NCBI RefSeq assembly: GCF_032484785.1
Contig: NZ_JAUETR010000001.1
Span: 4,529,501 to 4,593,500, forward strand
Origin: Bradyrhizobium sp. SZCCHNS1050
GTDB lineage: Bacteria > Pseudomonadota > Alphaproteobacteria > Rhizobiales > Xanthobacteraceae
Reading direction: 5' to 3'
Length of the DNA stretch: 64,000 nt
Made by a program: the position numbers and the translations under genes. Positions 33,073 through 59,562 of the stretch are shown piece by piece. Positions within the stretch are counted from its first letter, which is position 1; each line of letters begins with the position of its first letter. Under the pieces are notes generated by a model. It saw only the letters and a program-made list of their open reading frames with translations. It had not been told where the DNA came from and did not search any database.

Positions 33073-33095
33073 ATCCCCCGATTCGGAGAGTGATC

Positions 33096-33905: not shown

Positions 33906-33908
33906 GCC

Positions 33909-41101: not shown

Positions 41102-41124
41102 CCGTTCACGTGGGGAGTTGCAGG

Positions 41125-42796: not shown

Positions 42797-42797
<1 letters not shown>
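41943..42797 (+). CDS. Amino-acid-type ABC transporter permease
   Basis: A 284-residue permease of the HisM/GlnP type with about five helices. [20 protein letters not shown] starts the conserved core and [20 protein letters not shown] is the EAA loop. An unusual N-terminal soluble lead of about 25 residues precedes the first helix. Start and stop overlap the neighbours (ATGA with the binding protein gene; TGATG with the ATPase gene). Only one permease gene is present, so it probably acts as a homodimer. Confidence 0.92.
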
Positions 42798-43561
<764 letters not shown>

Positions 43562-43565
43562 GGTG

Positions 43566-44384
43566 ATGGAATTGAAGTCGATCGTGCTGGCTGGGCTCAT
43601 GAGCGCGGCCGTGGCGGGCGCAGCTCTCGCCGCCGAGCTGCCGACCGAGATCAAGCAGAACGGTCTGCGCATCGCGGTGGTGCCGAACTATCCACCGATG
43701 GAGTTCAAGGATCCGGCCACCGCGACCCTGACCGGCTTCGACGTCGCGCTCGGCGAGGCGCTGGCCAAGAAGCTCGGCGTCAAGGCGGTGTGGCAGGAGA
43801 CCAGCTTCGACCAGTTGATGCCGGGCCTCGCCACGCAGCGTTTCGACATCATCCTGACCGGCATGACCGACTACAAGAGCCGGCAGGATACCGCGACCTT
43901 CATCGACTACCTGCGCAGCGGTCCGCGATTCTTCGTGCAGGCTTCGCGCGCCAGCGAGTTCAGGGAGCCGACGGCGCTGTGCGGCAAGAAGGTCGGCGCC
44001 TCCAGGCGCACGATGTTCCCGAAGGACATCGCCGCCTGGAGCGAGAAGAACTGCGGCGCGAGCGGAATCGAGCTCGTCGGCACCGAGGGCTCGGCCGACG
44101 CCCGGACGCAGCTCAAGCAGGGCCGCATCGACGCCGCCGTGCAGGGCAACGAGACCTTGCCCTACATCATGGATCTCGAGCCGAACACTTACGTGCCGGT
44201 CGGCACGCCCATCGCGTACCAATATACGGGGCTGGCGACGCCGGTGAAGGCGGACGAACTGCGCGAGGCGCTGCGCGCCGCGCTGGAGGGCCTGATTGCC
44301 GACGGCAGCTACAAGGCGCTGCTGGCGAAGTGGAAGCTGAGCGACAATGGAATCGAGAAGGTGCTGATCAATGCTGGACAGTAA
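43566..44384 (+). CDS. Amino-acid-type ABC transporter binding protein (second of two)
   Basis: A 272-residue family 3 binding protein: signal peptide MELKSIVLAGLMSAAVAGAA, then GLRIAVVPNYPPMEFKD, GFDVALGEALAKKLGV and FDIILTGMTDYKSRQ. It resembles the receptor at 41125, which suggests duplication with possible change in ligand. It begins 4 bases after the ATPase stop and overlaps the next gene by 14 bases, so it belongs to the same transcript. Confidence 0.9.
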   Translation: MELKSIVLAGLMSAAVAGAALAAELPTEIKQNGLRIAVVPNYPPMEFKDPATATLTGFDVALGEALAKKLGVKAVWQETSFDQLMPGLATQRFDIILTGMTDYKSRQDTATFIDYLRSGPRFFVQASRASEFREPTALCGKKVGASRRTMFPKDIAAWSEKNCGASGIELVGTEGSADARTQLKQGRIDAAVQGNETLPYIMDLEPNTYVPVGTPIAYQYTGLATPVKADELREALRAALEGLIADGSYKALLAKWKLSDNGIEKVLINAGQ

Positions 44385-45264
44385 GGCGCTCGCGGGAATC
44401 CCGGTCGTTCCCGCCAACACTTCGCCGCCGGCGCCGGACTATCCATGGCCTGCGCCGCACAGAGCGGCGATGTTCCTGTCGTTCGACATCGACGCCGAGA
44501 GCGCCTGGACCTCGAAGGATCCCGCGCATGCGGCGCGTCTGGTCACGATGAGCTTCGGCGGCTTCGAGGCGCGCGTCGGCACGCCGAAGCTGCTCGAGCT
44601 GCTCGCCGAGCTCGATCTCAAGGCGACGTTCTTCATCACGGGATGGGCGGTCGACGCGCATCCGGCGATGGCGGAAGCGGTGCTGAAGGCGGGCCACGAG
44701 ATCGGCCATCACGGCTATCACCATCTGCTGCCGGATCCCGGCGATCCCTTCATCGTCGAGGAGATCGAACGCGGCTTCGAGGCGATCCAGCGCCGGCTCG
44801 GCATCCGGCCGATCGGCTACCGCGCGCCGTTCGGCGAGTTCTGCGAGGAGCTGCTGACAGCGCTGGTGCGCCAGGGCATCGTCTACACCTCCTCGTTCCG
44901 CGATGACGTCAGGCCCTATCGCCATCGCTTGGCCTCCGGCTCGCCGGGCACGATCGAAATCCCGGTGACCGCGAGCTATGACGACTGGATGCACGGCCTG
45001 TCGGCGCGGTTCTCGCCGCGCTCGATCTTTCCGAAAGAGCACGTGCTGTCGATGTGGAAGGATGAGCTGGACGAAGTCCGCGATTGGGGCGCGATGGTGA
45101 CGACCGTGCTGCATCCGCAGGTCTCGGGCCGGCCGATGCGCTTCCGGCTGCTGCGCGAGTTCCTGACCTACGCCAAATCGTGCCGGGACGTGTGGATCAC
45201 GACCGGAGCCGAGATCGCGGCGAACTACCAGCGCCATGAGGCGGCGGAAGCGAAGGACGCATGA
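44371..45264 (+). CDS. Polysaccharide-deacetylase-fold hydrolase (PuuE-like setting)
   Basis: A 297-residue NodB-homology metal-dependent hydrolase. The catalytic and metal residues appear as AMFLSFDIDAES (aspartates), GHEIGHHGYHHLLP (two histidines) and GYRAPFGEF. There is no signal peptide, so it acts in the cytoplasm and is unlikely to act on cell wall. Cytoplasmic members such as PuuE open cyclic ureides (allantoin). Given neighbours acting on hydantoins, pyrimidines and N-carbamoyl compounds, a cyclic-amide hydrolase is the better guess. It overlaps both flanking genes. Confidence 0.83.
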   Translation: MLDSKALAGIPVVPANTSPPAPDYPWPAPHRAAMFLSFDIDAESAWTSKDPAHAARLVTMSFGGFEARVGTPKLLELLAELDLKATFFITGWAVDAHPAMAEAVLKAGHEIGHHGYHHLLPDPGDPFIVEEIERGFEAIQRRLGIRPIGYRAPFGEFCEELLTALVRQGIVYTSSFRDDVRPYRHRLASGSPGTIEIPVTASYDDWMHGLSARFSPRSIFPKEHVLSMWKDELDEVRDWGAMVTTVLHPQVSGRPMRFRLLREFLTYAKSCRDVWITTGAEIAANYQRHEAAEAKDA

Positions 45265-46634
45265 GTACGACGGCGATCTTCGGCAGCTACGTGCTGACGC
45301 GCAAGGACGGCGCGCAGGACGTCCTGCGCGATCACTGGGTGCTGGTCGAGGGCAGGCGCATCGCGGCCGTGACGCGTGATCGGCCGGCGGCGGACGAGGT
45401 GTTCGATCGTCCGGGCCGCTTCGTGCTGCCGGGCCTGTTGAACCTGCACAACCACATCTTCAGCGAGGCGATCGCACGCACGCTCACCGAGGACGGCAAC
45501 GGCCGGCGCAACAACAAGAGCATCGTCTACACCGTGCTGCTGCCGCTGTCCAAGCGCGGGGCCGAGATCCTTTCGGTGAAGGAGCGGCTGGCGATCGGCC
45601 GCATGGGGGTGCTGCAGCTCCTGAAGGGCGGCGCCACCACGGTGATGGAGCCGTTCCGCAACACGATCCCGGAGCTGTTCGATGCGGCTCTCGAGATGGG
45701 CCTGCGCTTCTATGGCGCGCCCTATCTGTTCTCGACATCAGATGCCAGGGCGGATGCCTCCGGCGTCGTGACTTACGCCGGCGATGACGGCGAGGCCGAC
45801 ATGGCGGTCTGGAATGCGCTCCATCAGCGCTGGCACGGCCAGGGCGACGGCCGCATTCGTCTTGCGATGAGCCCGCACGCGACCGATACCTGCGGACCGG
45901 ATCTGTTGCGCGCGGCTGCCAGCCGGGCGCGCGAGCTCGGCGTTCCCATCACCACGCACATGGCGCAGAGCGCGGGCGAGGTCGCGACGATCGCGCAGCG
46001 CCATGGCGGCCGCACCCCGGCCGAATATCTCGACTGGCTCGGCCTGCTTGGTCCCGATCTGCTGGCGGCGCATTGCCACGCATCGACCGATGCGGACCTT
46101 GCGCTGATGGCGGCGCGTGGTGCCGGCGTGCTGAACTGCCCGCGCGTGTTCGCGCGCGCCGGAGTCACCGCCGCCTTCGGCCGCTTCGCCGCGCATGGCG
46201 TCCGCACCGCGGTCGGCACCGACGGCTACAACATGGATCTGCTCGGCGAGCTCAACGCCGCGTCGATGATCTCGAAGATCGTGCTGGGAAGCGCCGAGAC
46301 GGCGAGCGCGCCGGAACTGATCGACGCCGTCACCACGACGGCCGCCGCCATGATCAAGCGCGACGATCTCGGCGTCATCGCGCCCGGCGCGACCGCCGAC
46401 CTCACCGTCGTCGACATGACGCATCCACATCTTCAGCCGCTACACGACCCGCGTCGCGGCCTGATCGCGCTCGCGAACCGCGCCAACATCGACCAGGTGA
46501 TGATCGACGGCCGGCTGCTGATCCACGACGGCCGCTATCTCCACGGTGACGAGGCGGCGATCACGGCGGCAGGCGCTGCAGCGATCGAAAAGATCTGGGC
46601 GTTGCCGGAGGCAGAGGCCGCATTCGCCGGCTGA
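45261..46634 (+). CDS. Amidohydrolase of the TRZ/ATZ/guanine-deaminase group
   Basis: A 457-residue amidohydrolase with the HxH metal site in GLLNLHNHIFSEA (about residues 63-68), LAMSPHATDTCGP, TTHMAQSAGE (His), LAAHCHASTDAD and the aspartate in AVGTDGYNMDLLG. This group deaminates or dechlorinates N-heterocycles. It overlaps the preceding hydrolase gene (ATGA) and ends the operon that starts at 40151 or 41125. Its exact substrate cannot be told; it is clearly different from the 8-oxoguanine deaminase at 2413. Confidence 0.86.
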   Translation: MSTTAIFGSYVLTRKDGAQDVLRDHWVLVEGRRIAAVTRDRPAADEVFDRPGRFVLPGLLNLHNHIFSEAIARTLTEDGNGRRNNKSIVYTVLLPLSKRGAEILSVKERLAIGRMGVLQLLKGGATTVMEPFRNTIPELFDAALEMGLRFYGAPYLFSTSDARADASGVVTYAGDDGEADMAVWNALHQRWHGQGDGRIRLAMSPHATDTCGPDLLRAAASRARELGVPITTHMAQSAGEVATIAQRHGGRTPAEYLDWLGLLGPDLLAAHCHASTDADLALMAARGAGVLNCPRVFARAGVTAAFGRFAAHGVRTAVGTDGYNMDLLGELNAASMISKIVLGSAETASAPELIDAVTTTAAAMIKRDDLGVIAPGATADLTVVDMTHPHLQPLHDPRRGLIALANRANIDQVMIDGRLLIHDGRYLHGDEAAITAAGAAAIEKIWALPEAEAAFAG

Positions 46635-46640
46635 ATGCTG

Positions 46641-47270
46641 CTACCGCGTGCCGTAGGCGCGGTCGCCGGCGTCGCCGAGGCCGGGAACGATGAAGGCGTC
46701 GTCGTCGAGGCCGTCGTCGATCGCGGCGGTCCACAGTGCGGCATCGGGATGCAGGCCGCGGACGCGCTCGACGCCCTCGGGCGCCGCGATCATGCAGACC
46801 ATGCGGATATCCTTGGCGCCGCGCTCCTTGAGCCGGTCGACCGCGGCGACTGCGCTGTTGCCGGTCGCGAGCACCGGCGTGACGACGACGGCCAGGCGCT
46901 CCTGCAGGTCGGACGGCGCCTTGAAGAAATACTCGACGGCGGTGAAGGTCTGCGGCTCGCGGTACAGGCCGATATGGGCGACGCGGGCGGTCGGCACCAG
47001 ATCGAGCATGCCGTCGACGAAGGTGACGCCGGCGCGCAGCACCGGCACGAACACCAGCTTCTTGCCGGCGATCTTGGCCGACTGCATTCGCGCCAGCGGC
47101 GTCTCGATCTCGACCTCCGTGAGCGGCAGGTCGCGCGTGACCTCGTAGCACAGGAGCATGCCGATCTCCTTCAAAAGCTCGCGGAACGACTTGGTCGAGA
47201 TCGACTTGTCGCGGATCAAGGTCAGCTTGTGCTGCACCAGCGGATGATCGACGACCGTGACGCCTTCCAT
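46641..47270 (-). CDS. upp: Uracil phosphoribosyltransferase
   Basis: A 209-residue enzyme making UMP from uracil and PRPP; E. coli Upp has 208 residues. It has [37 protein letters not shown] and [19 protein letters not shown]; the last is the PRPP-binding loop, with PVLATG where DPMLATG is usual. ATG 47270 is chosen since GGAG lies 9 bases upstream; an ATG at 47279 is too close to it. In the URC route of uracil breakdown UPRTase performs the first step, and URC4 and URC1 follow upstream on the same strand. Confidence 0.93.
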
Positions 47271-47286
47271 GGCTTTCATCTCCAAA

Positions 47287-47377
47287 GCGTAGGGTGGCAA
47301 AGGCGCGAAGCGCCGTGCCCACCTGATACTAGCTCAGCTTGGAATGGTGGGCACGCTGCGCTTTGCCCACCCTACGC
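47287..47377. repeat. Inverted-repeat element (GCGTAGGGTGG family)
   Basis: GCGTAGGGTGG at 47287 and CCACCCTACGC ending at 47377 are the outer arms; inner arms CGTGCCCACC and GGTGGGCACG also pair. This dispersed intergenic element lies just upstream of upp. Confidence 0.75.
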
Positions 47378-47392
47378 GCAACTTATGAACTG

Positions 47393-47504
47393 CGTCGTTG
47401 CGAGGAGCGAAGCGACGAAGCAATCCAGACTTTCTTCCGGGCCCTGGATTGTTTCCGCCGTCGCCCTTCGGGCTATGGCGGACAAGTCGCTTCGCTCGCA
47501 ATGA
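47393..47504. repeat. Inverted-repeat element (GAGCGAAGCGACGAAGCAAT family), copy 1
   Basis: Outer arms CGTCGTTGCGAGGAGCGAAG and the complementary CTTCGCTCGCAATGACG at the right, with inner CAATCCAG/CTGGATTG. The same core occurs at 51559-51639, so this is a dispersed repeat family; this copy has an interrupted right arm. Confidence 0.8.
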
Positions 47505-47540
47505 CGTCGGCTGTTATGAAGCAAGGCTACCAAACACCTC

Positions 47541-48764
47541 TTAAAACACCGTGCCGTCGCTGAGGATGGTCAGCGGCGGCGAACCGTCCGGGCGGCGGGC
47601 GAAGGCGAGCTTGCGGCCGGCGGCCCAGCTGCCGCCTTCGAGGATGCGCGCCAAGGGCAGCTGTTCCGCCGTCTGGCCGGTGCGCTGGCGGATCAGCGCG
47701 GCCAGGCGATCGAGCAGGCCGACGGTCAGCGCGCGCCATTCCACCACCAGCGGGGAATCAACGGCATGCGCCCGCGCGGCATCGGCGGGATCGCGCAGCA
47801 CCAGCACGCCGCCGTCGACGAACAGGCCGCCATTGCGGTATTCGGCGAGTCCCGTAAGGCCGTCGATGTTCTCGAGCACGAGGCCGGCGCGCTGCAGCGG
47901 TTCGATCAGCGAATAGCTCAGCCATTGCGACAGCTTGTGCAATGGGACGAGACCGCTGGTCGCGTCATCGGTGACCAGGGAAGCATGGTGCCAGCAGTCG
48001 CCGAGCGCGATGCCTTGCAGCGTCAGCCGCGACGGCCAGATTGGGCCGAGCTGCAGCAGCACCTGCTGCAGAATGTCAGCGGCCTGGAGGTGGCCGCCGA
48101 TCGCACCGGCGGCGAGCTGATCGAACAGACCGCCGGGACGTGGGGTATCTTTCCGACCGAAGATATCCGGCTTTGCAGCCGTGACCTCGCCTAGCCGGCG
48201 CAGCAGCGCAACGCGGCCTTCGAGTCCGACCAGCGGATTGTCGGCGCTCACCTGGAAGCCGCGTTCGAGATCGGCGACGATGATGTGCTGCAGCTTCGCG
48301 GCGTCGGCCCGCAGCGGATGGCTTGCATCGGCCGAAAACGCACCGCGTGCGAACATGTCGAGGCTCGCCAGTGCCAGCCCTTCGGAGCGGCCGATGCGTG
48401 CGCCGGTCACGGCATCCTGATAGCGCCACGCCGCGCCGGCGCCGGCGTCGAGCAGCACGCTGGTGATGGCGAGATCGAACTCGGCGCGCGCCCGTGAAGC
48501 CGCATTCGGCCAATTCACTTTGTCGGCGATCGCGGCCCAGCGATCGACACCGCCGACCACGAAATGCCGCCAGCGCGAGTGGAACGGCACCTCGCCGCCG
48601 GGATAGGCCCTGCGGGTCACGTCGAGCACGAGGTCGGCAATCGCATCGAGCTTCGCGAGATCGATGCGGAAGTGCGGCAGCCTGTCGGCGAGACCGAGCG
48701 CAAGCAGCTGATGCGCCCGCTCGCGTACGGCGCGGGCGGACAGGAGATATGAAACGTCGGTCAT
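47541..48764 (-). CDS. URC4/Urg3-family protein (DUF1688) of uracil catabolism
   Basis: A 407-residue DUF1688 protein. Family traits include YPGGEVPFHSRWRHFVVGG near residue 55, the RSEGLALASLDMFARGAFS region and FVDGGVLVLRD near the C-terminus. In the yeast Lachancea kluyveri URC4 is required after URC1 to process the opened pyrimidine, with ribosylurea as a related metabolite. Bacterial homologues sit next to GTP-cyclohydrolase-II-like genes, as here (14-bp gap). Catalytic residues are not established. Confidence 0.88.
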   Translation of the reverse strand: MTDVSYLLSARAVRERAHQLLALGLADRLPHFRIDLAKLDAIADLVLDVTRRAYPGGEVPFHSRWRHFVVGGVDRWAAIADKVNWPNAASRARAEFDLAITSVLLDAGAGAAWRYQDAVTGARIGRSEGLALASLDMFARGAFSADASHPLRADAAKLQHIIVADLERGFQVSADNPLVGLEGRVALLRRLGEVTAAKPDIFGRKDTPRPGGLFDQLAAGAIGGHLQAADILQQVLLQLGPIWPSRLTLQGIALGDCWHHASLVTDDATSGLVPLHKLSQWLSYSLIEPLQRAGLVLENIDGLTGLAEYRNGGLFVDGGVLVLRDPADAARAHAVDSPLVVEWRALTVGLLDRLAALIRQRTGQTAEQLPLARILEGGSWAAGRKLAFARRPDGSPPLTILSDGTVF

Positions 48765-48778
48765 GATCAGCCGCTGCG

Positions 48779-50035
48779 CTAGTACTTTTCGAGCGGTCGG
48801 CCGACGGTGTCGCCGAGCGCCTCGGGCTTCTGCGGCTCCAGCGAGAAATAGCCGGCGGCCTTCTTGGCCGCGATCTCGACATGGGCATCCGCCGGGATCA
48901 GCTCGTCGGGGATCGGCACGCGCTCGACGATGTCGACACCCTGGCCAACCAGCGCATCGTGCTTCATGTCGCTCATCGAGATGAAGCGGTCGATGCGTTT
49001 GATGCCGAGCCAATGGATGACGTCGGGCATCAATTGCTGGAAGCGCGCATCCTGCACGCCGGCGACGCATTCGGTGCGCTCGAAATAGGCCGCCGCGGCG
49101 TCGCCGTCCTCCTGGCGCTTGCGCGCATTGTAGACCAGGAACTTCGTCACCTCGCCGAGCGCGCGGCCTTCCTTGCGGTTGTAGACGATGATGCCGAGGC
49201 CGCCGTTCTGCCCGGCCGCAACGCATTCTTCGATACCGTGGATCAGATACGGGCGACAGGTGCAGATGTCGGAGCCGAACACGTCGGAGCCGTTGCACTC
49301 GTCATGCACGCGACATGTGATCTTCGTCCGGCTGTCATTGAGCTTGTCGACGTCGCCGAACAGATAGACCGTGGTGCCGCCGATCGGCGGCAGGAATACC
49401 TGCAGGTCGGGCCGGGTCACCAGCTCCGGATACATGCCGCCGGTCTGCTCGAACAGGCCGCGGCGCAGACTGGTCTCGCTGGTGCCGAAGCGCGCGGCCA
49501 CGCCGGGCAGGTACCACACCGGGTCGATCGCGATCTTCACCACGGAGACGCTGCCATTGGCATGCACGACGTCGCCGTCATGAACGAGGCGCTTGGCCGC
49601 GAGCGCCGCATGCAACTCAGGAAGCTCGATCCGCGCCTTGGTCACGGCGATCGTCGGCCGGATATCGATTCCTTCCGCGATCTCGCCGCCGAAATTCTCG
49701 GCCACCAGATGGCCCCAGGGATCGAGCGCGACGATCTTCGCCGGATCTTGCCACTGCGCGAACGGGCCGATCGTGGCGGCGGGATGGGTGTTGGTGAGAT
49801 CGGGGCGGCGGATCGGATCGAGCGCACCAGATGATACCGCGAGCGCACGGTAGACCGTGTAGGAACCGCCATGGCTGCCGATCACGTTGCGGTCCTGCGG
49901 ACGTGATACCGTGCCGATCACGGGTCCGCGCTCGCGCGCGTTCTCCGCGCCCCAATGAAGCGGGAAATTGTGCTTGGCGCCTGGCACCGGGTGCGAGGTC
50001 AGGCGGATGTGATCCGTACGGTTGGAGCGAGTCAT
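48779..50035 (-). CDS. URC1-type GTP cyclohydrolase II-like enzyme of uracil catabolism
   Basis: A 418-residue protein. The C-terminal half is a GTP cyclohydrolase II fold with zinc cysteines in ECNGSDVFGSDICTC (C-x10-C-x-C) and NRKEGRALGEVTKF in place of the RibA RQEGRGIGL segment. The 200-residue N-terminal extension and that loop separate it from riboflavin RibA and match URC1. URC1 is thought to open the uracil ring at the nucleotide level. No other riboflavin gene is nearby. It begins with ATG 50035 and is first in a URC1-URC4(-upp) group. Confidence 0.88.
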   Translation of the reverse strand: MTRSNRTDHIRLTSHPVPGAKHNFPLHWGAENARERGPVIGTVSRPQDRNVIGSHGGSYTVYRALAVSSGALDPIRRPDLTNTHPAATIGPFAQWQDPAKIVALDPWGHLVAENFGGEIAEGIDIRPTIAVTKARIELPELHAALAAKRLVHDGDVVHANGSVSVVKIAIDPVWYLPGVAARFGTSETSLRRGLFEQTGGMYPELVTRPDLQVFLPPIGGTTVYLFGDVDKLNDSRTKITCRVHDECNGSDVFGSDICTCRPYLIHGIEECVAAGQNGGLGIIVYNRKEGRALGEVTKFLVYNARKRQEDGDAAAAYFERTECVAGVQDARFQQLMPDVIHWLGIKRIDRFISMSDMKHDALVGQGVDIVERVPIPDELIPADAHVEIAAKKAAGYFSLEPQKPEALGDTVGRPLEKY

Positions 50036-50291
50036 CGGACAGCCACCCCCAAAACGGCAACGGCCCGCCTTGACGACGGGCCTGAGCAGAACGCGTTCAC
50101 GTTTTCCATGCACCAATATAGCAGTTTTTCCCCGCCAAACAAGTGGTCCCGGGTGGCCGGTTATTTGTAAACGAATGGTTTCGGATCCCGGTCGGCGGTC
50201 CCGCGGCGTCAGGCCCTGGCATGGCGCTTGCCTTTTGCAGGCGACGCCGCCAGCTTGGCGCGCATATGGAATTCTCGAGGGCAACGGCGGC

Positions 50292-51521
50292 ATGGACCTG
50301 ATCATTCGCAATGCGGTGCTGGCGCAGCACAGTGAGCTGCGCCGGGCCGATATCGGAGTTTCCGACGGCACCATCGTGGCGATCGCGCCGTCATTGCAGG
50401 CCGACGGCGAACAGCGCGATGCCGAGAACTGCCTCGTCGTGCCCGGCTTCATCGAGACGCACATCCATCTCGACAAGACCTGCATCCTCGACCGCTGCAC
50501 GATCAGGGAAGGGACCGTGGCAGAGGCGGTGAGCGAGACTGCGGCCGCCAAGCGCAACTTCACGGCCGACGATGTCTACGCGCGAGCAAAGCAGACCGTG
50601 GAGCGTTGCGTCAGCCACGGCACGATGCGGATGCGCACCCATGTCGAGCTCGATCCCGGCATCGGTTTCATCGGCTTCGAGGCGATCCAGCAGCTCGCGC
50701 GCGACTATGCCTGGGCGCTCGACCTCGAGATCTGCGTGTTTCCGCAGGAAGGGCTCACCAACTATCCGGGCACCGAGGAGCTCTTGATCGAGGGCCTGCG
50801 CCGCGGCGCACGCACCATCGGCGCCGCCCCCTATTTCGACACCGACCCGCCGGCACAGATCGACCGCATCTTCGCGATCGCGCGTGACCACGACGTCGAC
50901 ATCGACATGCATCTCGATCTTGCCGAGACGCTCGATCACATGCAGATCGAATATGTCTGCCGCAAGACGGAGGAATACGGCTGGGGCGGCCGCGTCGCGG
51001 TCGGCCACGTCACGCAGCTGTCGCTGCTGCCGCCGGAGCGTTTCGACGCGATCGCAACGCAGCTCGCCAATGCCGGCGTCGCAGTCACCGTGCTGCCCTC
51101 GACCGACCTGCATCTGATGGGGCGCCGGCACGATCACGCGATCCCGCGTGGCGTGGTCCCGCTGGAGCCGCTGCGCGCGCGAGGGGTGACCTGCTCGCTC
51201 TCGACCAACAACGTGCTGAACCCGTTCACGCCGTATGGCGACGGCTCGCTGATCCGGATGGCGAACCTCTACGCCAACGTCTGCCAGGTCTCGCGGCCGG
51301 ATCATCTTGCGGGGTGTCTCGACATGGTCACGCACGACGCGGCGCGGCTGATGCGGCTCGATGACTACGGCATCGAGGTCGGCGCGCCGGCCGATCTCGT
51401 CTGCATCGATGCAGCGACGCCGACCGAGGCCGTGGCGACCCTGGCGCAGCCGCTCTGGGGCCTCAAGCGCGGCCGGCCGTCGTTCTCGCGGACGCGGCCG
51501 GTGCTGTACCGGCCGGGGTGA
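50292..51521 (+). CDS. Cytosine deaminase-like amidohydrolase
   Basis: A 409-residue amidohydrolase with the CodA-type motif FIETHIHLDKTCILDRC (metal His pair at about 56-58), RMRTHVELDPG, DMHLDLAETLDHMQIEYVC cut to its core HLDLAETLDH, VGHVTQLSLL and TNNVLNPFTPYGDG. These match cytosine and related pyrimidine or isoguanine deaminases. It is divergent from URC1, so it may feed uracil into the URC route. The 256-bp gap holds the promoters; no riboswitch was recognised. Confidence 0.85.
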   Translation: MDLIIRNAVLAQHSELRRADIGVSDGTIVAIAPSLQADGEQRDAENCLVVPGFIETHIHLDKTCILDRCTIREGTVAEAVSETAAAKRNFTADDVYARAKQTVERCVSHGTMRMRTHVELDPGIGFIGFEAIQQLARDYAWALDLEICVFPQEGLTNYPGTEELLIEGLRRGARTIGAAPYFDTDPPAQIDRIFAIARDHDVDIDMHLDLAETLDHMQIEYVCRKTEEYGWGGRVAVGHVTQLSLLPPERFDAIATQLANAGVAVTVLPSTDLHLMGRRHDHAIPRGVVPLEPLRARGVTCSLSTNNVLNPFTPYGDGSLIRMANLYANVCQVSRPDHLAGCLDMVTHDAARLMRLDDYGIEVGAPADLVCIDAATPTEAVATLAQPLWGLKRGRPSFSRTRPVLYRPG

Positions 51522-51558
51522 AACGATGAGGGGTGTTGCATGACGCTGTCGCCACATT

Positions 51559-51639
51559 CGTCATTGCGGGGAGCGAAGCGACGAAGCAATCCAGAGTCCT
51601 CGTGTAGCCCTGGATTGCTTCGCTTCGCTCGCAATGACG
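51559..51639. repeat. Inverted-repeat element (GAGCGAAGCGACGAAGCAAT family), copy 2
   Basis: Arms CGTCATTGCGGGGAGCGAAG...CAATCCAG and CTGGATTGCTTCGCTTCGCT...CAATGACG fold into a long near-perfect hairpin between the cytosine-deaminase-like and carbamoylase genes. It shares its core with 47393-47504. Confidence 0.85.
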
Positions 51640-51664
51640 TCGGAGTTCGGATAGGAGTTTTGCA

Positions 51665-52591
51665 ATGCGCGTGATCAACGTCGCCGCCGCCCAGATGGGA
51701 CCGATTCAGCGCGCTGACAGCCACGAGGCGGTCGTCGCGCGCATGATCGCACTGATGGACGAGGCCAAGCGCAAGGACGCCGACCTGATCGTCTACCCGG
51801 AGCTGGCGCTGACCACGTTCTTTCCGCGCTGGTACATGGAGGATCAGGCCGAAGTCGACAGCTGGTTCGAGCGCGAGATGCCCAATGCGGCCGTGCAGCC
51901 GCTGTTCGATCGCGCCGCGCAGCATCAGATGGCCATGTATCTCGGCTATGCCGAGCTGACACCGGACGGGCACCACTACAACACGGCAGTTCTCACCGAC
52001 CGCGCCGGCAACATCGTCGGCAAGTATCGCAAGGTGCATCTGCCCGGCCACGAGGAGTTCGAACCGGAGCGCAGCCACCAGCATCTGGAGAAGCGCTATT
52101 TCGAGCCGGGCGATCTCGGCTTTCCCGTCTGGCGCAGTCTCGATGGCATTATCGGCATGGCGATCTGCAACGATCGCCGTTGGCCGGAGACCTATCGCGT
52201 CATGGGGCTGCAGGACGTCGAGCTGGTGCTGATCGGCTATAACACGCCGTCGGTGAACTCATTGAAATCGGCCGAGGGACTGCAGCAGCGCCTGTTCCAC
52301 AACCGGCTCTCCGCGCAGGCCGGCGCCTATCACAACTCGTGTTGGGTCGTCGCGGTCGCGAAGGCCGGCGTCGAGGACGGTCATCATCTGATCGGCGGCA
52401 GCCTGATCGTCAATCCCGACGGCGAGATCGTCGCGGAGGCGGTGACGGAAGGCGACGAGGTGCTGGTCGCACCCTGCGATCTCGATGCGACGAGGTTCGG
52501 CAAGCAGACGATCTTCGATTTCGCAAGGCATCGGCGGATCGAGCATTACCGGCTGATCACCAGCCGCACGGGCGCGGTGCCGCCGGAGTGA
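51665..52591 (+). CDS. N-carbamoyl-D-amino acid hydrolase (paralogue 2)
   Basis: A 308-residue nitrilase-superfamily D-carbamoylase with Glu in VYPELALTTFFPRWY, Lys in YRKVHLPGHEEFEP and Cys in GMAICNDRRWPETY. Length and motifs are those of classical D-carbamoylases (304 residues). It shares the AAAQMGPxQRADS opening with the copy at 40151. The racemase-like and hydantoinase genes next door complete a hydantoin-to-D-amino acid route: hydantoinase opens the ring, the carbamoylase frees the amino acid, and the racemase recycles the other isomer. Confidence 0.93.
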   Translation: MRVINVAAAQMGPIQRADSHEAVVARMIALMDEAKRKDADLIVYPELALTTFFPRWYMEDQAEVDSWFEREMPNAAVQPLFDRAAQHQMAMYLGYAELTPDGHHYNTAVLTDRAGNIVGKYRKVHLPGHEEFEPERSHQHLEKRYFEPGDLGFPVWRSLDGIIGMAICNDRRWPETYRVMGLQDVELVLIGYNTPSVNSLKSAEGLQQRLFHNRLSAQAGAYHNSCWVVAVAKAGVEDGHHLIGGSLIVNPDGEIVAEAVTEGDEVLVAPCDLDATRFGKQTIFDFARHRRIEHYRLITSRTGAVPPE

Positions 52592-52667
52592 GGCAGGAGA
52601 GAGAGTGGGCCTGACCACGCTGATCAGCAGTTGCATTGTCAGGCACGAGCGCCGCTACACAAACAGT

Positions 52668-52782
52668 GTCGTCCCGGCGAACGCCGGGACCCATACCGCG
52701 GAAGCTATCGAGGAACGGAGCTGACAGTTGCCTGCCTCACGTCGGCCGGCGGCTATGGGTCCCGGCTCAAGGCCGGGACGAC
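52668..52782. repeat. Inverted-repeat element (GTCGTCCCGGC family)
   Basis: GTCGTCCCGGC (52668-52678) pairs with GCCGGGACGAC (52772-52782); the arms also carry GGGACCCATA and TATGGGTCCC. A dispersed element in the gap between converging carbamoylase and racemase-like genes. Confidence 0.8.
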
Positions 52783-52847
52783 AGCGGAGTGTGAGATGGC
52801 CGGCCGGGCAGGTCCGTGCAGGGGCAAACGACGGATGTGCGAACCAC

Positions 52848-53507
52848 TCACCCCGCAAACGCCACCGCGCCGAGCGCCATGGTCACTGCGGCCTGGGTCG
52901 GATCGATCACCGGAATTCCCAGCGCGTCCTCCAGGTTCTTGCGATGCCGTGCCATGCCGGCGCAGCCCATGACGATGGCGCCGGCGCCGTCCTCGTCCTT
53001 CAGCGCGCGGCCGACCGCGATCATCTTCGCCAAGGTGCCTTCGCCTGACGCCGTCTCCGCCACGGTCATGTCCAGCGGGCGCTCCGCGGCCAACCGATCC
53101 ATCAAGCCCATCTGGCGGAGATAGCGGATGTGGCGGCGGATCGAGCGCTGCGCGATGGCGAGCACGCCGAACGTATCGGCGCGGGTCAGCGCGGTGAGCA
53201 CGCCGCATTCGGCGATGCCGAGCACCGGCCGTGCCGTGGCCTCGCGGCAGACATGCAGGCCAGGGTCGCTGTAGCAGGCGATCACGAACGCGCTGGATGC
53301 GTTGTCGCCCTCGACGAAACGCCGCAGCGGCAGGGTGACGCTGTCGGCATCCTTCTGGCTCTCGATGCCGTATGGACCTTCCTTCAAGGTCTCGCAGACG
53401 ATCTCCGGCCCGTCGGCGAACATCAGCGGCTTGAGCGCCGCCGCCAAGCCGTCGGTGACCATCTGGTTGGAGTTCGGATTGATCACGGTGATGCGCGGGC
53501 GGGACAT
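52848..53507 (-). CDS. Asp/Glu/hydantoin racemase-family protein
   Basis: A 219-residue member of the Asp/Glu/hydantoin racemase family. It opens ITVINPNSNQMVTDGLAAAL, as hydantoin racemases do, and has the two catalytic-cysteine regions FVIACYSDPGLHV and AIVMGCAGMARH. Such enzymes invert the C5 centre of 5-substituted hydantoins without cofactor. ATG 53507 gives the standard start. It is divergent from the hydantoinase gene across 128 bp. Confidence 0.88.
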   Translation of the reverse strand: MSRPRITVINPNSNQMVTDGLAAALKPLMFADGPEIVCETLKEGPYGIESQKDADSVTLPLRRFVEGDNASSAFVIACYSDPGLHVCREATARPVLGIAECGVLTALTRADTFGVLAIAQRSIRRHIRYLRQMGLMDRLAAERPLDMTVAETASGEGTLAKMIAVGRALKDEDGAGAIVMGCAGMARHRKNLEDALGIPVIDPTQAAVTMALGAVAFAG

Positions 53508-53635
53508 GGGAGCTACCTGCTTCTTCAGTGTTGACGGCGCGTGACAGGCAACCACTATGCCACGGCTGACGCAATGGGGCCGATGCGGTCACCTCGCGTC
53601 CACGGCGTTCCATCTGGCAGAACTAGGAGATCGCG

Positions 53636-55105
53636 ATGACCGAGCCGGCCTATGACCTGATCATCCGAGGCGGGCGCGTCGCCACCACCACCGATACGTT
53701 CGAGGCTGATGTCGCCATCACAGGCGAGACCATCGCGGCGATCGGCCGCGGGCTCGGAACGGCGAAGCGCGAGATCGACGCGCGCGGCAAATATGTGCTG
53801 CCCGGCGGCGTCGACAGCCATTGCCATATCGAGCAGCTCTCGGCGGCAGGGATCGTCAATGCCGACACCTTCGAGAGCGCCACCACGTCGGCCGCCTTCG
53901 GTGGCACCACGTCCGTGATCTCCTTCGCGGCCCAGCATGTCGGCATGCAGTTGCCCCAGGTGGTCGAGGACTATCACGCGCTGGCGCGCAAGGGTGCCGT
54001 GATCGACTACGCGTTCCACATGATCGTCGCCGATCCGACCAGGGAGACGCTGGAGCGCGACCTGCCGGCGCTGATCCGTCAGGGCCACGGCTCGATCAAG
54101 ATCTTCATGACCTACGACCGGCTCAAGATCGACGACGAGCCGCTGCTCGACATTCTCGTCGCCGCGCGCGAGGGCGGCGCCATGCTGTGCGCGCACGCCG
54201 AGAACCATGGCATCATCTCCTGGATGGTGAAGCGGCTGCTGTCGCGCGGCTACACCGCGCCGAAATACCACGCCATCAGCCACGCGCGCTTCTCCGAGGC
54301 CGAGGCGTTCAACCGCCTGATCGGCATGGCCGCCCTCGTCGATCAGCCGATCATGATCTTCCACGTCTCGACCGCGGAAGGCGCCAAGGTGATCCGCGAT
54401 GCGCGCGGGCAGGGGCTGAAGGTGTTCGCGGAGACCTGTCCGCAATACCTGTTCATGACGGCTGATGATCTCGACAAGCCCGGCATCGAGGGCGCGAAGT
54501 GGATGTGCAGCCCGCCGCCGCGCCGCGCGCCCGACCAGGAGGCGCTGTGGCAGGCGCTGTCGCTCGGCGATCTGCAGACCATCTCCTCCGATCACGCGCC
54601 GTATCGCTTCGACGAGACCGGCAAGCTGCGCGCCGGCCCCAACCCCAACTTCAAGCAGATCGCCAACGGCCTGCCGGGCCTGGAGCTGCGGCTGCCGCTG
54701 CTGTTCGATGCGATGGTGTCGAAGGGCCGGCTCGGCCTCAACAAGTTCGTCGAGCTCACGGCGACGGCGCCGGCCAAGATCTACAATCTGCATCCGAGGA
54801 AAGGCGCGATCGCGATCGGCGCCGATGCCGACATCGCGCTGTGGGATCCGGACAAGCACGTCACGATCAGCGATGCCGCCATGCACGACCTCGCCGGCTA
54901 CACGCCGTTTGCGGGGCGCAGCGTGCAGGGCTGGCCGGTGACCGTGCTGTCGCGCGGCCGCGTCATCATTGACAACGGCAGACTGTCGGCCGCGCCCGGC
55001 TCCGGCCAGTTCCTCGCCCGCAGCGGCGGCGAGGCTGCGAAGCCGACGGGGCGCCTGGTCGCGGATATGGACCCGGAGCAGAATTTTGGGGCGAAGCTGC
55101 TCTAG
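53636..55105 (+). CDS. Hydantoinase / dihydropyrimidinase
   Basis: A 489-residue cyclic amidohydrolase of the dihydropyrimidinase family. The metal HxH is in GVDSHCHIEQLS, the bridging (carboxylated) Lys in GSIKIFMTYDRL, further His in LCAHAENHG and IFHVSTAEG, and Asp in TISSDHAPYRF. It opens dihydrouracil or 5-substituted hydantoins. Neighbouring racemase-like and D-carbamoylase genes favour D-hydantoinase. With URC also present, the cell may have two routes for pyrimidines. No dihydropyrimidine dehydrogenase (pydAB) is in the window. Confidence 0.92.
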   Translation: MTEPAYDLIIRGGRVATTTDTFEADVAITGETIAAIGRGLGTAKREIDARGKYVLPGGVDSHCHIEQLSAAGIVNADTFESATTSAAFGGTTSVISFAAQHVGMQLPQVVEDYHALARKGAVIDYAFHMIVADPTRETLERDLPALIRQGHGSIKIFMTYDRLKIDDEPLLDILVAAREGGAMLCAHAENHGIISWMVKRLLSRGYTAPKYHAISHARFSEAEAFNRLIGMAALVDQPIMIFHVSTAEGAKVIRDARGQGLKVFAETCPQYLFMTADDLDKPGIEGAKWMCSPPPRRAPDQEALWQALSLGDLQTISSDHAPYRFDETGKLRAGPNPNFKQIANGLPGLELRLPLLFDAMVSKGRLGLNKFVELTATAPAKIYNLHPRKGAIAIGADADIALWDPDKHVTISDAAMHDLAGYTPFAGRSVQGWPVTVLSRGRVIIDNGRLSAAPGSGQFLARSGGEAAKPTGRLVADMDPEQNFGAKLL

Positions 55106-55248: not shown

Positions 55249-55303
55249 TGGGGCGAGAGCTGAATGCCCTTCGTCGATCGCTGTCCAGGCGAGGACCTCC
55301 TTG

Positions 55304-56275
55304 ATGCATGTCCTGATCTTCGGCGGCGCCGGCTTCGTCGGGCTCAACATCGCGCAAGGGCTGCTCGAGCGCGGCCATGCCGCGACGATCTTCGACGCAG
55401 CGGCTCTGCCGAACGCGGCGGAGCGCGCCTTTGCGCCGTATCGCGAGCGTCTGCACCTCGTGCAGGGCGACGTCACCGATGCGAGCGCTGTTGCGGCCGC
55501 GATCGCCGGCGGCTGCGATGCCGTTGTCATGGGCGCCGCGATTACCGCCGGTCCGGAGCGTGACGCATCCGACCCCGAGCGCATCCTCGCGGTCAATCTG
55601 CTGGCGCAGGTGCCGATCCTGCAGGCGGCGCGGCGCAGCGGCATCCGCCGCGTCATCAATCTCTCCTCGGCGGCGTCCTACGGCGCCAGCGGTCAGCGCT
55701 TTGCCGTGCTGGAGGAGAGCACGCCGTGCGAGCCGGTGTCGCTCTATGCGATCAGCAAGTTCGCCTCTGAGCGCGTCGCGTCGCGGCTGTCGGACCTGTG
55801 GCAAACCGACGTGATCAGCGTGCGCCTGTCGGCGGTGTTCGGCCCGTTCGAGCGCGGCGGCGGCGTGCGCGACACGCCATCGCCGCAGACGCTGATCGCG
55901 GCCTGTTGCGCGCGCAATGCGCCGGCGCTGCTGAACGAGCCGGGCGACAAGGACTGGGTCTATGCGGTCGACGTCGCCGACGCGGTCTGCCGGTTGCTGG
56001 AAGCCGAGATGCCGCAGCACACGCTCTACAACATCTCCAGCGTAGCCACGTTTACAGTCGAGGCCTGGGGCCGCGCCTTCGCGCAAGGCCGCCCCGGCTT
56101 CGTCTGCCGGCTTGCGGAGCAGGGCGAGACGCCGACGGTGCCGGTGTTCGCGCCGAGCCGCGGCCGGCTGTCGACGACGCGACTGGCCGAGGAGTTCGGC
56201 TGGCGCGCGCGCTTCGACTGCGCGGCATCGGCCGAGCATTTCGGCCGCTGGTTCGATCAGTACGGGAGAGACTGA
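55304..56275 (+). CDS. NAD-dependent epimerase/dehydratase family protein
   Basis: A 323-residue extended SDR enzyme with N-terminal GGAGFVGLNIAQGL, the Ser of NLSSAASYGAS and the catalytic YAISKFASE (YxxxK). It acts on a sugar nucleotide or similar diol; the substrate is not evident. ATG 55304 has GAGG upstream; a TTG directly before it is in frame. It overlaps no gene but is followed 1 base later by the SDR gene, so the two are one operon. Confidence 0.86.
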   Translation: MHVLIFGGAGFVGLNIAQGLLERGHAATIFDAAALPNAAERAFAPYRERLHLVQGDVTDASAVAAAIAGGCDAVVMGAAITAGPERDASDPERILAVNLLAQVPILQAARRSGIRRVINLSSAASYGASGQRFAVLEESTPCEPVSLYAISKFASERVASRLSDLWQTDVISVRLSAVFGPFERGGGVRDTPSPQTLIAACCARNAPALLNEPGDKDWVYAVDVADAVCRLLEAEMPQHTLYNISSVATFTVEAWGRAFAQGRPGFVCRLAEQGETPTVPVFAPSRGRLSTTRLAEEFGWRARFDCAASAEHFGRWFDQYGRD

Positions 56276-56276
56276 G

Positions 56277-57038
56277 ATGAGGCTCAAGGCGAAGGTCGCG
56301 GTCATCACCGGCGGCGGCTCCGGCATCGGCCGCGCCAGCGCCGTCATGTTCGCGCGCGAGGGCGCTTATGTTGCGCTGGTCGACCGCGACGCGGCAGGCG
56401 CGGAGGAAACCCTGTTGCTCCTGGCCAAGGCCGGAGGCCAGGGCCGCGTGTATGTCGGCGATGTCGGTGATGCGGATTTTGCAAAGGCGACGGTCGAGAG
56501 CGTGGCAGCCGCGCGCGGCCGGCTGGATGTGCTGATGACCGCTGCCGGCTTCTCCTGCGGCGGCACCGTGGTCACGACCGATCCCATGGATTGGGACGCG
56601 GTGTTCCGCGCCAATGTCGGCGGCACCTGGCTGTGGGCCAAGGTCGCGGTGCCGATCATGCAGAAGCAGAAGGCCGGGTCGATCATCACCGTGGCATCGC
56701 AGCTTGCGGTCGCCGGCGGCAAAGGCAATAGCGCCTATATCGCCGCCAAGGGCGCGATCATCAGCCTGACCCGCACCATGGCGGTCGACTTCGCTACCGA
56801 CGGCATCCGCGTCAATGCGCTGGCGCCGGGTGCGATCGACACGCCGCTGCTGCGCCGGAGCTTTGCGCGCCACGTCGATCCGGAGCCGGTGCGCGAGGCC
56901 TCGCGCCAGCGCCACGCGATGAAGCGCTTTGGCGCGGCCGACGAGGTCGCGGCCGCCGCGCTGTTCCTGGCCAGCGACGAGGCGTCGTTCACGACCGGCA
57001 TCGTGCTGCCGGTGGATGGCGGCTGGCTCGCGGCGTAG
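56277..57038 (+). CDS. SDR-family oxidoreductase
   Basis: A 253-residue classical short-chain dehydrogenase: TGGGSGIGRASA for NAD(P), the Ser of ITVASQLAVAGG, YIAAKGA (YxxxK) and the closing VLPVDGGWLA. It oxidises an alcohol or reduces a ketone. It runs tail to tail with the LysR gene (1 base apart). The substrate is unknown; it could process the carbon skeleton released by the preceding steps. Confidence 0.9.
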   Translation: MRLKAKVAVITGGGSGIGRASAVMFAREGAYVALVDRDAAGAEETLLLLAKAGGQGRVYVGDVGDADFAKATVESVAAARGRLDVLMTAAGFSCGGTVVTTDPMDWDAVFRANVGGTWLWAKVAVPIMQKQKAGSIITVASQLAVAGGKGNSAYIAAKGAIISLTRTMAVDFATDGIRVNALAPGAIDTPLLRRSFARHVDPEPVREASRQRHAMKRFGAADEVAAAALFLASDEASFTTGIVLPVDGGWLAA

Positions 57039-57039
57039 C

Positions 57040-57936
57040 TCAACGCCTGGCCGTGCCGGACTTCCGATCGCGCCCGCGCAAAATGTCCGCAAGCGCGGCC
57101 GCGTTGCGAGACAGCGGCTCGAAGCGAGGCGTCAGGAGATACGCGCGCATCGGAATCTTCGGTGCGAGTGGCCGTGCCGCGAGGTCGGGCCAGGCGCGGC
57201 CGCGCAGCACGAATTGGTCGACCACGGCAAGGCCCGCGCCGGCGCGGGCCATGGCGCAGGCGTCGGGCGTGTAGCGCACGATCGTGGTCGGCTCCGGGCC
57301 GCCGGCCAGGGCCGACGTGACGATGTGACCATAAGGCGTCTGCGGGCCGAAGCCGACCAGCGGATAGGGCAGCATGTCCTTCGGTCTGATGCTGCGCAGC
57401 CTCGTCAGGGCATGGTCGGCCGGCATGATCACGTGCAGCGCGCCCTCCGCGATCGTCTCTACCGCGACTGTCGGCTCGTCGACCGGCAGCACAGTGATGC
57501 CGAGGTCGGCGCGGGCTGTGCCGACGCGGCTGACGATCTCCAGCAGGGTCAACGATTCGAACTCGACGCGCAGATCTGGAAAGCGGCCGCGCAGCCGCGC
57601 CAGCGCCTCCGGCACCATGCTGTGGGCCGCGCTCGGGCTCGCCACCACGCGGATGGTGCCCGTGCCGCCGGCGCGCAGTTCGTCGGCGAGGTCGTTGATG
57701 CGCGCGACGCCGCGATGGACGTGCTCGACCTCGGCGAACAACCGCTTGGCCTCCGGCGTCGGCTGCACCCGGCCGCTGATGCGCTCGAACAGCTTGAGCT
57801 TGAGGCCATCCTCGGTATAGGCCAGCAGCCGGCTGATCGCGGGCTGCGACACCGAGAGCAGCCGCGCAGCGCCGCTGATCGAGCCCGTCATCATAATCGC
57901 GCGGAACACCTCGATCTGGCGCAGATTGAGCGGCAT
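57040..57936 (-). CDS. LysR-family regulator
   Basis: A 298-residue LysR regulator with N-terminal HTH (TGSISGAARLLSVSQPAISR, residues 16-35). ATG 57936 has GAGG 4 bases before; a longer frame from 57993 would run across the operator. It is divergent from the flavoprotein and peptide-type ABC genes and faces the SDR gene. A near-perfect palindrome with a T-N11-A core lies 53 bp upstream, so autoregulation and control of the rightward genes are likely. Confidence 0.93.
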   Translation of the reverse strand: MPLNLRQIEVFRAIMMTGSISGAARLLSVSQPAISRLLAYTEDGLKLKLFERISGRVQPTPEAKRLFAEVEHVHRGVARINDLADELRAGGTGTIRVVASPSAAHSMVPEALARLRGRFPDLRVEFESLTLLEIVSRVGTARADLGITVLPVDEPTVAVETIAEGALHVIMPADHALTRLRSIRPKDMLPYPLVGFGPQTPYGHIVTSALAGGPEPTTIVRYTPDACAMARAGAGLAVVDQFVLRGRAWPDLAARPLAPKIPMRAYLLTPRFEPLSRNAAALADILRGRDRKSGTARR

Positions 57937-57988
57937 GCGACCTCTTGTCTCGCTGTGGATGGCTGTCGACTCTAGCCGCCGCTGCCGC

Positions 57989-58009
57989 CCCATAACAAGC
58001 TGTTATGGG
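57989..58009. promoter_or_regulatory. LysR operator palindrome (T-N11-A)
   Basis: CCCATAACA-AGC-TGTTATGGG is a perfect 9-bp inverted repeat with a 3-bp centre and includes the LysR T-N11-A spacing (T at 57993, A at 58005). It lies between the divergent LysR and flavoprotein genes. Confidence 0.8.
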
Positions 58010-58146
58010 CGGCGGACAAATCGGTATGGTCGGTGCCGGACCTGCTTTGCTAAGCTTCGCGTGCCGGGTGACATGACTGATGGAGAGAGCGTGAGCGACA
58101 GCGAGCGTTTCGATCGCGATTGCGCGTGTCAATTCCGGTGCCCGGC

Positions 58147-59562
58147 ATGAGCGATGGCCTCGCCGCGCTGACGGCCCAGGTCCGTGGCGATCTTGCCAGG
58201 ATCGCCCATCCCAGCATGCCATGGCTGACGCCCGTCGTCGGTCCCGATGGCCGGCCTGCGCGCGATGTGCTGATCGTCGGCGGCGGCCAATCGGGTCTTG
58301 CCACCGCCTTCGCGCTGCTGCGCTCGCGCGTCAGCAACGTTCTCGTGCTCGACAAGGCCGAGGCAGGCCGCGAAGGACCGTGGCTCAGCTATGCGCGCAT
58401 GCCGACCCTGCGCAGCCCGAAGGACTTCACCGGACCCGATCTCGACGTCCCCTGTCTGACCTATCAGGCGTGGCACGAGGCGAAGTTTGGCGGCGAGAGC
58501 TGGCGCAATCTTGACCTGATCCCGCGCGAATATTGGGCAGACTATCTCGCCTGGTATCGCGAGGTGCTCGACCTTCCAGTGCGCAACGGCTGCGAAGTCG
58601 TCGATATCGCACCGGCCGCTGACGGACTGCTGCAGGCGACAGTGCGCAGCAAGGATGGTGAGACGACGATCTATGCCCGCAAGATCGTGCTGGCGACCGG
58701 GCAGGAGGGGATGGGCGATTGGAGCATTCCGGAGCCTCTGCGCCATTTGCCCGCAACGCGCTGCGCCCATTCCGGCGCCGAGATCGATTTCGACAGCTTG
58801 CGCGGCCGCCGCGTCGCCGTGATCGGGGCCGGTGCCTCGGCGTTCGACAATGCGGCGGCTGCGCTCGAAGCCGGTGCGAACAGCGTCGATCTGCTATGCC
58901 GCCGCACGGAAATCCAACTGATCCAACCCTATCGCTGGCTGACGTTCCGTGGTTTCCTGCGGCATTTCTCCGAACTCGACGACGTCTGGCGCTGGCGTTT
59001 CATGCGCGCGGTCCTCGAGTTGCGCGAGGGCTTTCCGCAGCACACCTATGATCGCTGCGCCCGTCATGCTGCGTTCCACCTGCATGAGGGCGCGCCTGTG
59101 CTGATCGCGTGCGAAACGTCAGAGGGAGTCGTGCTGCGGACACCGCAAGGCGAAGTCACAGTCGATTTCGTGGTCAGCGCGACGGGCATCTCGATGGACT
59201 TCGCAAAGCGTCCGGAGCTGCAGCGCTTTGCCGCCAACATCGCGCGTTGGTGCGATCGCTACACGCCCGATGCCGGCGAGCGCAACGACCGGCTTGGCGC
59301 CTTTCCCTATCTCGCCGACGACTATGCGCTGTGCGAGCGTGTGGCTGGCCGGACGCCGTGGATCCGCGACGTCCATGTGTTTGCCATTGCCTCGACGATG
59401 AGCTTCGGCGCGTCGGGATCTTCCATCAATGCAATGACCACCGCGGTGCCGAAGCTCGTGCATGGGCTGACGCGCGGGCTGTTCAAGGCCGACATCGACA
59501 AGCATTGGGCCAACTTCCAGGCCTACGATGTGAAGCAGGCCGAGGTGCGCTGTGGCACGTGA
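58147..59562 (+). CDS. FAD-dependent oxidoreductase (flavin monooxygenase-like)
   Basis: A 471-residue flavoprotein with FAD Rossmann LIVGGGQSGLATAFALL near residue 40, a second nucleotide motif AVIGAGASAFDNAAAA near residue 220, and the DFVVSATG region before the C-terminus. It resembles N-hydroxylating or flavin-containing monooxygenases; the substrate is unknown. The start is uncertain (ATG 58147 has a weak ribosome site; TTG 58120 is in frame). After its TGA stop the same frame stays open to 59694, through three 15-bp repeats, and overlaps the next ATG. Confidence 0.8.
   Translation: MSDGLAALTAQVRGDLARIAHPSMPWLTPVVGPDGRPARDVLIVGGGQSGLATAFALLRSRVSNVLVLDKAEAGREGPWLSYARMPTLRSPKDFTGPDLDVPCLTYQAWHEAKFGGESWRNLDLIPREYWADYLAWYREVLDLPVRNGCEVVDIAPAADGLLQATVRSKDGETTIYARKIVLATGQEGMGDWSIPEPLRHLPATRCAHSGAEIDFDSLRGRRVAVIGAGASAFDNAAAALEAGANSVDLLCRRTEIQLIQPYRWLTFRGFLRHFSELDDVWRWRFMRAVLELREGFPQHTYDRCARHAAFHLHEGAPVLIACETSEGVVLRTPQGEVTVDFVVSATGISMDFAKRPELQRFAANIARWCDRYTPDAGERNDRLGAFPYLADDYALCERVAGRTPWIRDVHVFAIASTMSFGASGSSINAMTTAVPKLVHGLTRGLFKADIDKHWANFQAYDVKQAEVRCGT

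Follow-up and report, generated by a model that had tools for sequence, protein, structure and literature searches.

The URC gene cluster

The window analysed here, 64,000 nucleotides from the genome of Bradyrhizobium sp. SZCCHNS1050 (an assembly of 7.62 Mb in 6 contigs), contains a set of genes of the uracil-catabolism (URC) type. These are transcribed from the minus strand in the order URC1, URC4, UPRT. URC1 (48779–50035) encodes a 418-residue homologue of GTP cyclohydrolase II (GCH II) of the uridine triphosphate (UTP) cyclohydrolase type, scoring 759 bits against NF005536/PRK07198 (cut-off 403). It is followed by URC4/DUF1688 (47541–48764; 407 residues; PF07958, 485.9 bits) and by a URC6-like uracil phosphoribosyltransferase gene (UPRT, upp; 46641–47279; PF14681, 242.8 bits; TIGR01091, 265 bits, cut-off 208). 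Divergent from URC1 on the plus strand lies a gene for a cytosine-deaminase-like amidohydrolase (approximately 50292–51521; PF07969/PF01979; 177 bits to Escherichia coli cytosine deaminase, 1k6w), and the gap of about 256 bases upstream of URC1 (50036–50291 according to the gene models) is the probable promoter region. The start codons of these four genes were chosen by us among gene models, and the NF005536 scan of URC1 and the PF07969/PF01979 scan of the cytosine-deaminase-like gene were done on longer open frames.

The family scores of the window genes were far above chance level. Profile scores and gene models thus bore out the arrangement described in an earlier note on this DNA, with three URC genes in series and a divergent deaminase-like gene, and its identification of a URC cluster was confirmed, since URC1, URC4 and the linked UPRT all scored as members of their families. 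Judged by these matches, the genes are a bacterial URC cluster, which is a known kind; close URC4 relatives (up to 97% identical, from named Bradyrhizobium) are already called, e.g., 'URC4/urg3 family protein' at NCBI.

Distribution of URC1, URC4 and UPRT

Of 146 genomes of the same genus, 114 contained PF07958, as did 28 of 397 genomes of the same phylum (at least 90% complete; Pseudomonadota by inference), the latter representing 15 of 231 genera. The URC1 family model exceeded its cut-off in the same 28 genomes, 11 of which belong to the genus itself, and URC1 lay within 2 kb of URC4 in all of them. The earlier note had proposed searching related genomes for genes that always travel with URC1 and URC4; in 40 loci, each spanning about 20 kb (17 from other genera and 23 from the same genus), the three genes were nearly always together, with URC1 adjoining URC4 in 40/40 and UPRT beside the pair in 39/40. 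Among 80 named loci, the best 80 of 578 confirmed candidates, URC1 was within the fetched stretch in 75 and UPRT in 78 after a coverage filter. At least three loci were common to both locus samples, and the counts contain duplicates. Five named loci had no URC1 in the stretch: in one, the gene was cut by the locus edge, and in the other four (L150, L152, L156, and L160) it was not adjacent to URC4 and lay elsewhere in the genome (68–71% identity; 4/4 genomes). A replacement enzyme for Urc1 in these four was therefore rejected.

URC4 also occurred on 13 plasmid records. Four plasmids were inspected: the same triad was annotated on those of Gordonia, Azospirillum, and Pseudoroseomonas, and the Cupriavidus record listed no genes there. 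In one Azospirillum locus (L182: 10000–16024), the genes after the triad encode an amidohydrolase (PF07969) and a BMP-type ATP-binding cassette (ABC) importer, suggesting a module for the uptake of nucleobases or nucleosides.

Urc1 as a putative UTP cyclohydrolase

The solved structures closest to Urc1 were 7ej3 and 7eev (572 bits; 64% identity, 251 of 392 aligned residues). Cys247, Cys258, and Cys260 of Urc1 were invariant in 22/22 sequences and are presumably the zinc ligands of the GCH II domain. The PDB names both structures GTP cyclohydrolase II; they are presumably the entries that belong to a UTP cyclohydrolase paper to which the excerpted text of PMC12507026 refers. Given its 64% identity to 7ej3, the Urc1 of the window would act on UTP. 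All named database rows inspected called URC1 proteins GTP cyclohydrolase II, a name that is probably misleading.

Predicted fold and conserved residues of Urc4

Structure prediction gave Urc4 the Qng1/DUF2419 fold over most of the protein, with 309–326 residues in the best alignments and 14–22% identity to Qng1. On the basis of this model, Urc4 is probably a Qng1/DUF2419-fold N-ribosyl hydrolase acting on (5-phospho)ribosylurea. PDB titles name the Qng1 mutants K199C and D231N, and excerpts of PMC11592518 give D298 and W302 as active-site residues. These four residues of Qng1 are spaced by 32/67/4, and Urc4 has K277, E308, E376, and W380 spaced by 31/68/4, conserved in 50, 50, 46, and 50 of 50 Urc4 sequences, respectively; the nearly equal spacing suggests a possible equivalence. 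A similar pattern, within a small tolerance, occurred in 1.3% of 20,000 shuffles.

The sequences themselves pointed weakly in the same direction. The Q_salvage family (PF10343) matched 15/50 Urc4s with a best E of 6.3e-4, compared to 3/50 for the next foreign family, and 9/24 of the Urc4s scanned individually. In the matching proteins, residues ~261–366 (own numbering) aligned to profile positions 147–251; the best stretch of the L122 Urc4 (146–197 on profile 57–108) was earlier in both. Substitutions were then scored in a 182-residue fragment of the L176 Urc4, with a baseline of 13.6 bits against Q_salvage. E308D raised the score to 17.0 and E376D to 15.3 with a longer match, while it was lowered by E308A and K277A (12.1 each), H276A (12.5), W380A (12.7), and R310A (10.6), and the match was lost with Y309A. 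Since E308D raises the score, the profile favours Asp at the column of Urc4 Glu308, which weakly agrees with what would be expected if this column were that of the catalytic Asp of Qng1.

Several observations weigh against this assignment. The alignment of a second Urc4 model was a subset of that of the first, so the two models are not independent. Every Q_salvage score observed, including those of the individually scanned proteins, was below the Pfam gathering score of 25 bits, which is why Urc4 is not filed as a PF10343 member; the Urc4 of the window gave no PF10343 match, and PDB sequence searches with Urc4 returned no DUF2419 protein. The baseline match in the substitution series was marginal (E 0.05), and N311A raised its score to 15.3, so not all conserved Urc4 residues are shared with Qng1. 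Two active-site Asp residues of Qng1 would correspond to Glu in Urc4, and 4/50 Urc4 sequences have Gln in place of Glu376. Moreover, a shared fold leaves the substrate unfixed, and the activity of Urc4 is a prediction; the phosphorylation of its substrate is likewise our proposal, the published wording being ribosylurea. A PF10343 search of the host genome and 398 genomes of the same phylum gave no match, but the controls were silent too, so absence is not shown by it.

Proposed pathway for uracil catabolism

In the proposed pathway, UPRT would convert uracil and 5-phosphoribosyl 1-pyrophosphate (PRPP) to uridine monophosphate (UMP), which cellular kinases would phosphorylate to UTP. Urc1, as a UTP cyclohydrolase, would open the pyrimidine ring hydrolytically and release the three-carbon part C4-C5-C6, probably as malonic semialdehyde first, together with pyrophosphate; by analogy with GTP cyclohydrolase II, it would leave (5-phospho)ribosylurea. 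Hydrolysis of the C1'-N bond would then be carried out by Urc4 with Lys277 and Glu308, the proposed equivalents of Qng1 Lys199 and Asp231, along with Glu376 and Trp380, yielding urea and ribose 5-phosphate. Urease would consume the urea and ribose 5-phosphate would be returned to PRPP, making ribose phosphate a recyclable handle, and the divergent cytosine-deaminase-like gene may supply uracil.

GTP cyclohydrolase II releases pyrophosphate. Because of this, and because the substrate of Qng1 is a 5'-monophosphate (excerpts of PMC11592518; also PDB titles), analogy suggests that the true substrate of Urc4 is 5-phosphoribosylurea, giving ribose 5-phosphate. Taken together, we consider a URC operon for uracil catabolism in which Urc4 is a Qng1-fold N-ribosyl hydrolase giving urea and ribose 5-phosphate to be the best explanation, with a probability of roughly 0.77. 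Gene identities, co-occurrence, the predicted fold, and conserved residues were observed, and all reactions are inferred.

Four routes of pyrimidine degradation are named in the excerpted texts of PMC7530994 and PMC12507026. RutA was not found in the genome (best 68 bits, cut-off 498) and neither was the dihydropyrimidine dehydrogenase PreA (best 34.5 bits, cut-off 335), with two control genomes above the cut-off in each case. URC is therefore the only uracil ring-opening route identified in this genome, the oxidative (barbiturate) route not having been searched for. Two strong ureC-like matches, unlinked to URC, indicated a likely capacity for urea use.

Alternative roles for Urc1 and Urc4

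An unlikely alternative is that Urc4 is a Qng1-fold nucleosidase that acts on UMP, UTP, or the open-ring acrylate intermediate instead of (phospho)ribosylurea. The fold evidence does not pick the leaving group and would accommodate this, but URC4 is assigned to the step from ribosylurea to urea in the excerpts of PMC7530994, and a UMP nucleosidase would reverse the UPRT reaction of the adjacent gene. The same report of urea as the product, along with the predicted nucleosidase fold, argues against a ureidohydrolase that would convert ribosylurea to ribosylamine, carbon dioxide, and ammonia; although either reaction would remove ribosylurea, we regard such an enzyme as very improbable. Least probable of all is that URC1 is a plain GTP cyclohydrolase II of the riboflavin pathway. 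This would account for the name used in databases and for 7ej3 and 7eev, and for the PF00925 domain retained in URC1, but it sits poorly with the identity to 7ej3, the presumed UTP cyclohydrolase entry, and with the occurrence of URC1 and URC4 in an identical set of 28 genomes. In addition, another PF00925 protein with a higher domain score is encoded elsewhere in the genome (C1:4933448) and could serve riboflavin synthesis. It appears likely that DUF1688/Urc4 forms a branch of the Qng1 fold that has so far gone unrecognised, and that it acts as a ribonucleotide nucleosidase with urea as leaving group.

Nucleoside-catabolism genes and the hydantoin module

Outside Bradyrhizobium, a raw count of 12/61 loci (L164, L139, L141, L143, L145, L146, L147, L149, L153, L062, L063, and L176) had deoB, deoA, deoC, or purine nucleoside phosphorylase (PNP) genes in the same fetched stretch as URC, compared to 0/59 Bradyrhizobium loci. 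Their identities were established by NCBIfam scores above cut-off for one representative each. In L164, the order PNP-deoC-deoA-deoB-URC1-URC4-UPRT ran consecutively. With such neighbours, a place for URC at the end of nucleoside catabolism fits better than one in a hydantoin pathway.

A hydantoin module follows the cytosine-deaminase-like gene of the window. It comprises a D-carbamoylase-like CN hydrolase (51665–52591, plus strand; 413 bits to 6lei), an Asp/Glu/hydantoin racemase family protein (52848–53555, minus strand; PF01177, 174 bits), and a D-hydantoinase/dihydropyrimidinase (53636–55105, plus strand; NF009941, 791 bits, cut-off 647; 381 bits to 4kqn). A second D-carbamoylase-like CN hydrolase was an open frame with a provisional start at 40043–41101 (plus strand), of which the segment 40160–41101 scored 343 bits against 8i99. 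Family and PDB matches thus upheld the flanking genes of the earlier note, which had further suggested that URC products and N-carbamoyl compounds are handled in one wider pathway.

D-hydantoinase orthologues (84–100% identity) were present in 81 of the 146 same-genus genomes, two of them partial (G063, G085) and with one 48%-identity match dropped (G027). URC4 was present in 80 of these 81, and the two genes were at most 12 kb apart in 8/80, against about 0.2 expected from random placement; in a further 4/80 they were 30–103 kb apart on the same contig. Because pairs split over two contigs of a draft assembly, of which there were many, were scored as not near, and the genomes are interrelated, the excess is numerically real, but its meaning is uncertain. 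Orthologues of the D-hydantoinase, racemase, and D-carbamoylase were near URC in the window, in L079 and L089 among 20 same-genus loci, and in L097, L110, L128, L131, and L148 among the 80 named loci, but in 0/20 loci of one further sample; four loci with 29–31% D-hydantoinase matches (L109, L134, L136, and L137) were excluded. The module was on the 5' side of URC in the window, L079, L097, L089, L110, and L148, and on the 3' side in L128 and L131. In L089, L110, and L148, genes for a flavin-containing monooxygenase (FMO), a short-chain dehydrogenase/reductase (SDR), and an epimerase accompanied the D-hydantoinase beside URC, likewise in the window at 55301–59562. Orthologues of the cytosine-deaminase-like protein were near URC in L079, L093, L094, and L097 (77–93%), with distant ones (28–29%) in L061, L069, and L070.

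Of the suggested combined pathway, the nearness of the two gene sets held up, in the excess over chance and in two different gene arrangements on the 5' and 3' sides of URC; the shared biochemistry is poorly supported. That nearly every D-hydantoinase genome also carries URC4 would favour it. Linkage was however not consistent, as 72/80 genomes did not have the pair within 12 kb, though many had it on separate draft contigs, and the linkage counts take no account of relatedness. Outside the genus, D-hydantoinase orthologues were beside URC in 1/61 loci (a Bradyrhizobiaceae metagenome-assembled genome), compared to the 12/61 with deo genes. Excerpts of published pathway accounts name no N-carbamoyl compound as a URC intermediate and no shared intermediate, and since RutA and PreA were absent above cut-off, a feed for a dihydropyrimidinase was not seen. 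A single joint pathway, while compatible with the proposed role of Urc4, is therefore quite improbable, and the module is better regarded as a separate nitrogen-scavenging neighbour of URC in a minority of genomes.

Other features of the window

The importer mentioned in the earlier note was present as a predicted ABC importer at approximately 40990–44384 (plus strand), with two SBP_bac_3 proteins (PF00497), one permease (PF00528), and one ATPase (PF00005). Between it and UPRT, on the plus strand, lie a polysaccharide-deacetylase-family hydrolase (44371–45264; PF01522; 168 bits to 3rxz), distant in sequence from the allantoinase PuuE (3cl6, 66 bits), and an amidohydrolase of the chlorohydrolase/deaminase type (45261–46634; PF01979, 146.6 bits), whose closest solved relatives were 3hpa (139 bits) and the 8-oxoguanine deaminase 7ww2 (133 bits). 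Close to this island, a creatininase-family amidohydrolase was encoded at 37982–38929. At 31690–35822, the gene for a COX1-family oxidase subunit precedes those for AAA and VWA proteins of the CbbQ/NorQ type, an arrangement that resembles a nitric oxide reductase set.

Rfam models gave no match at gathering thresholds, and the gap between URC1 and the cytosine-deaminase-like gene showed no inverted repeat of at least 12 nt when up to 40 nt were allowed between the arms. The window contains three copies of CGAAGCAATCCAG (0 expected). One is in the repeat-rich URC4–UPRT gap (47280–47540), where palindromes were noted by eye only, and the other two are the arms of a palindrome at 51582–51622, which lies after the cytosine-deaminase-like gene.

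Significance and comparison with known systems

Pfam still gives the function of the large URC4/DUF1688 family, with at least 7,996 protein clusters matched, as unknown. No link between URC4/DUF1688/PF07958 and Qng1/DUF2419 appeared among the matches listed from the open PMC literature, and an earlier mention is possible. The cluster itself is of a known kind, and what is added here is a specific, testable function predicted for DUF1688; with its substrate, products, and catalytic residues, the prediction would settle one step, so far poorly described, of pyrimidine degradation in fungi and bacteria. If this is true, URC closes as a cycle of PRPP, UMP, UTP, phosphoribosylurea, and ribose 5-phosphate, and a fold related to DNA-repair glycosylases would be common to queuine salvage and uracil catabolism. 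The prediction would also bear on the database name of URC1 proteins.

The roles of the URC genes were transferred from the URC pathway of the yeast Lachancea kluyveri (URC1, URC4, URC6), which the present cluster resembles in having the URC1, URC4, and UPRT families, here clustered; the cluster differs in the ureC-like genes of its host genome and in the divergent cytosine-deaminase-like gene. Of gene sets for hydantoinase, D-carbamoylase, and racemase, all three families are present at 51665–55105, outside URC. Urc1 resembles the UTP cyclohydrolase to which we assign 7eev and 7ej3 (64% identical over 392 residues), although these carry the other label in the PDB and the substrate of the window protein is deduced from them. 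Helix-hairpin-helix DNA glycosylases (AGOG, 1xqp and 7ou3; EndoIII, 1orn) matched Urc4 much more weakly, over ~190–230 residues, and their substrates are DNA. The nearest parallel to Urc4 is the queuosine-5'-monophosphate nucleosidase Qng1 (7u07, 7uk3, 7ulc, and 7ugk), with which it shares the predicted fold; four candidate active-site residues come in the same order and at nearly the same spacing as those of Qng1. Compared to Qng1, Urc4 is ~60–90 residues longer, only 14–22% identical, and below the Pfam cut-off, and would have Glu for two Asp; its leaving group would be urea rather than queuine.

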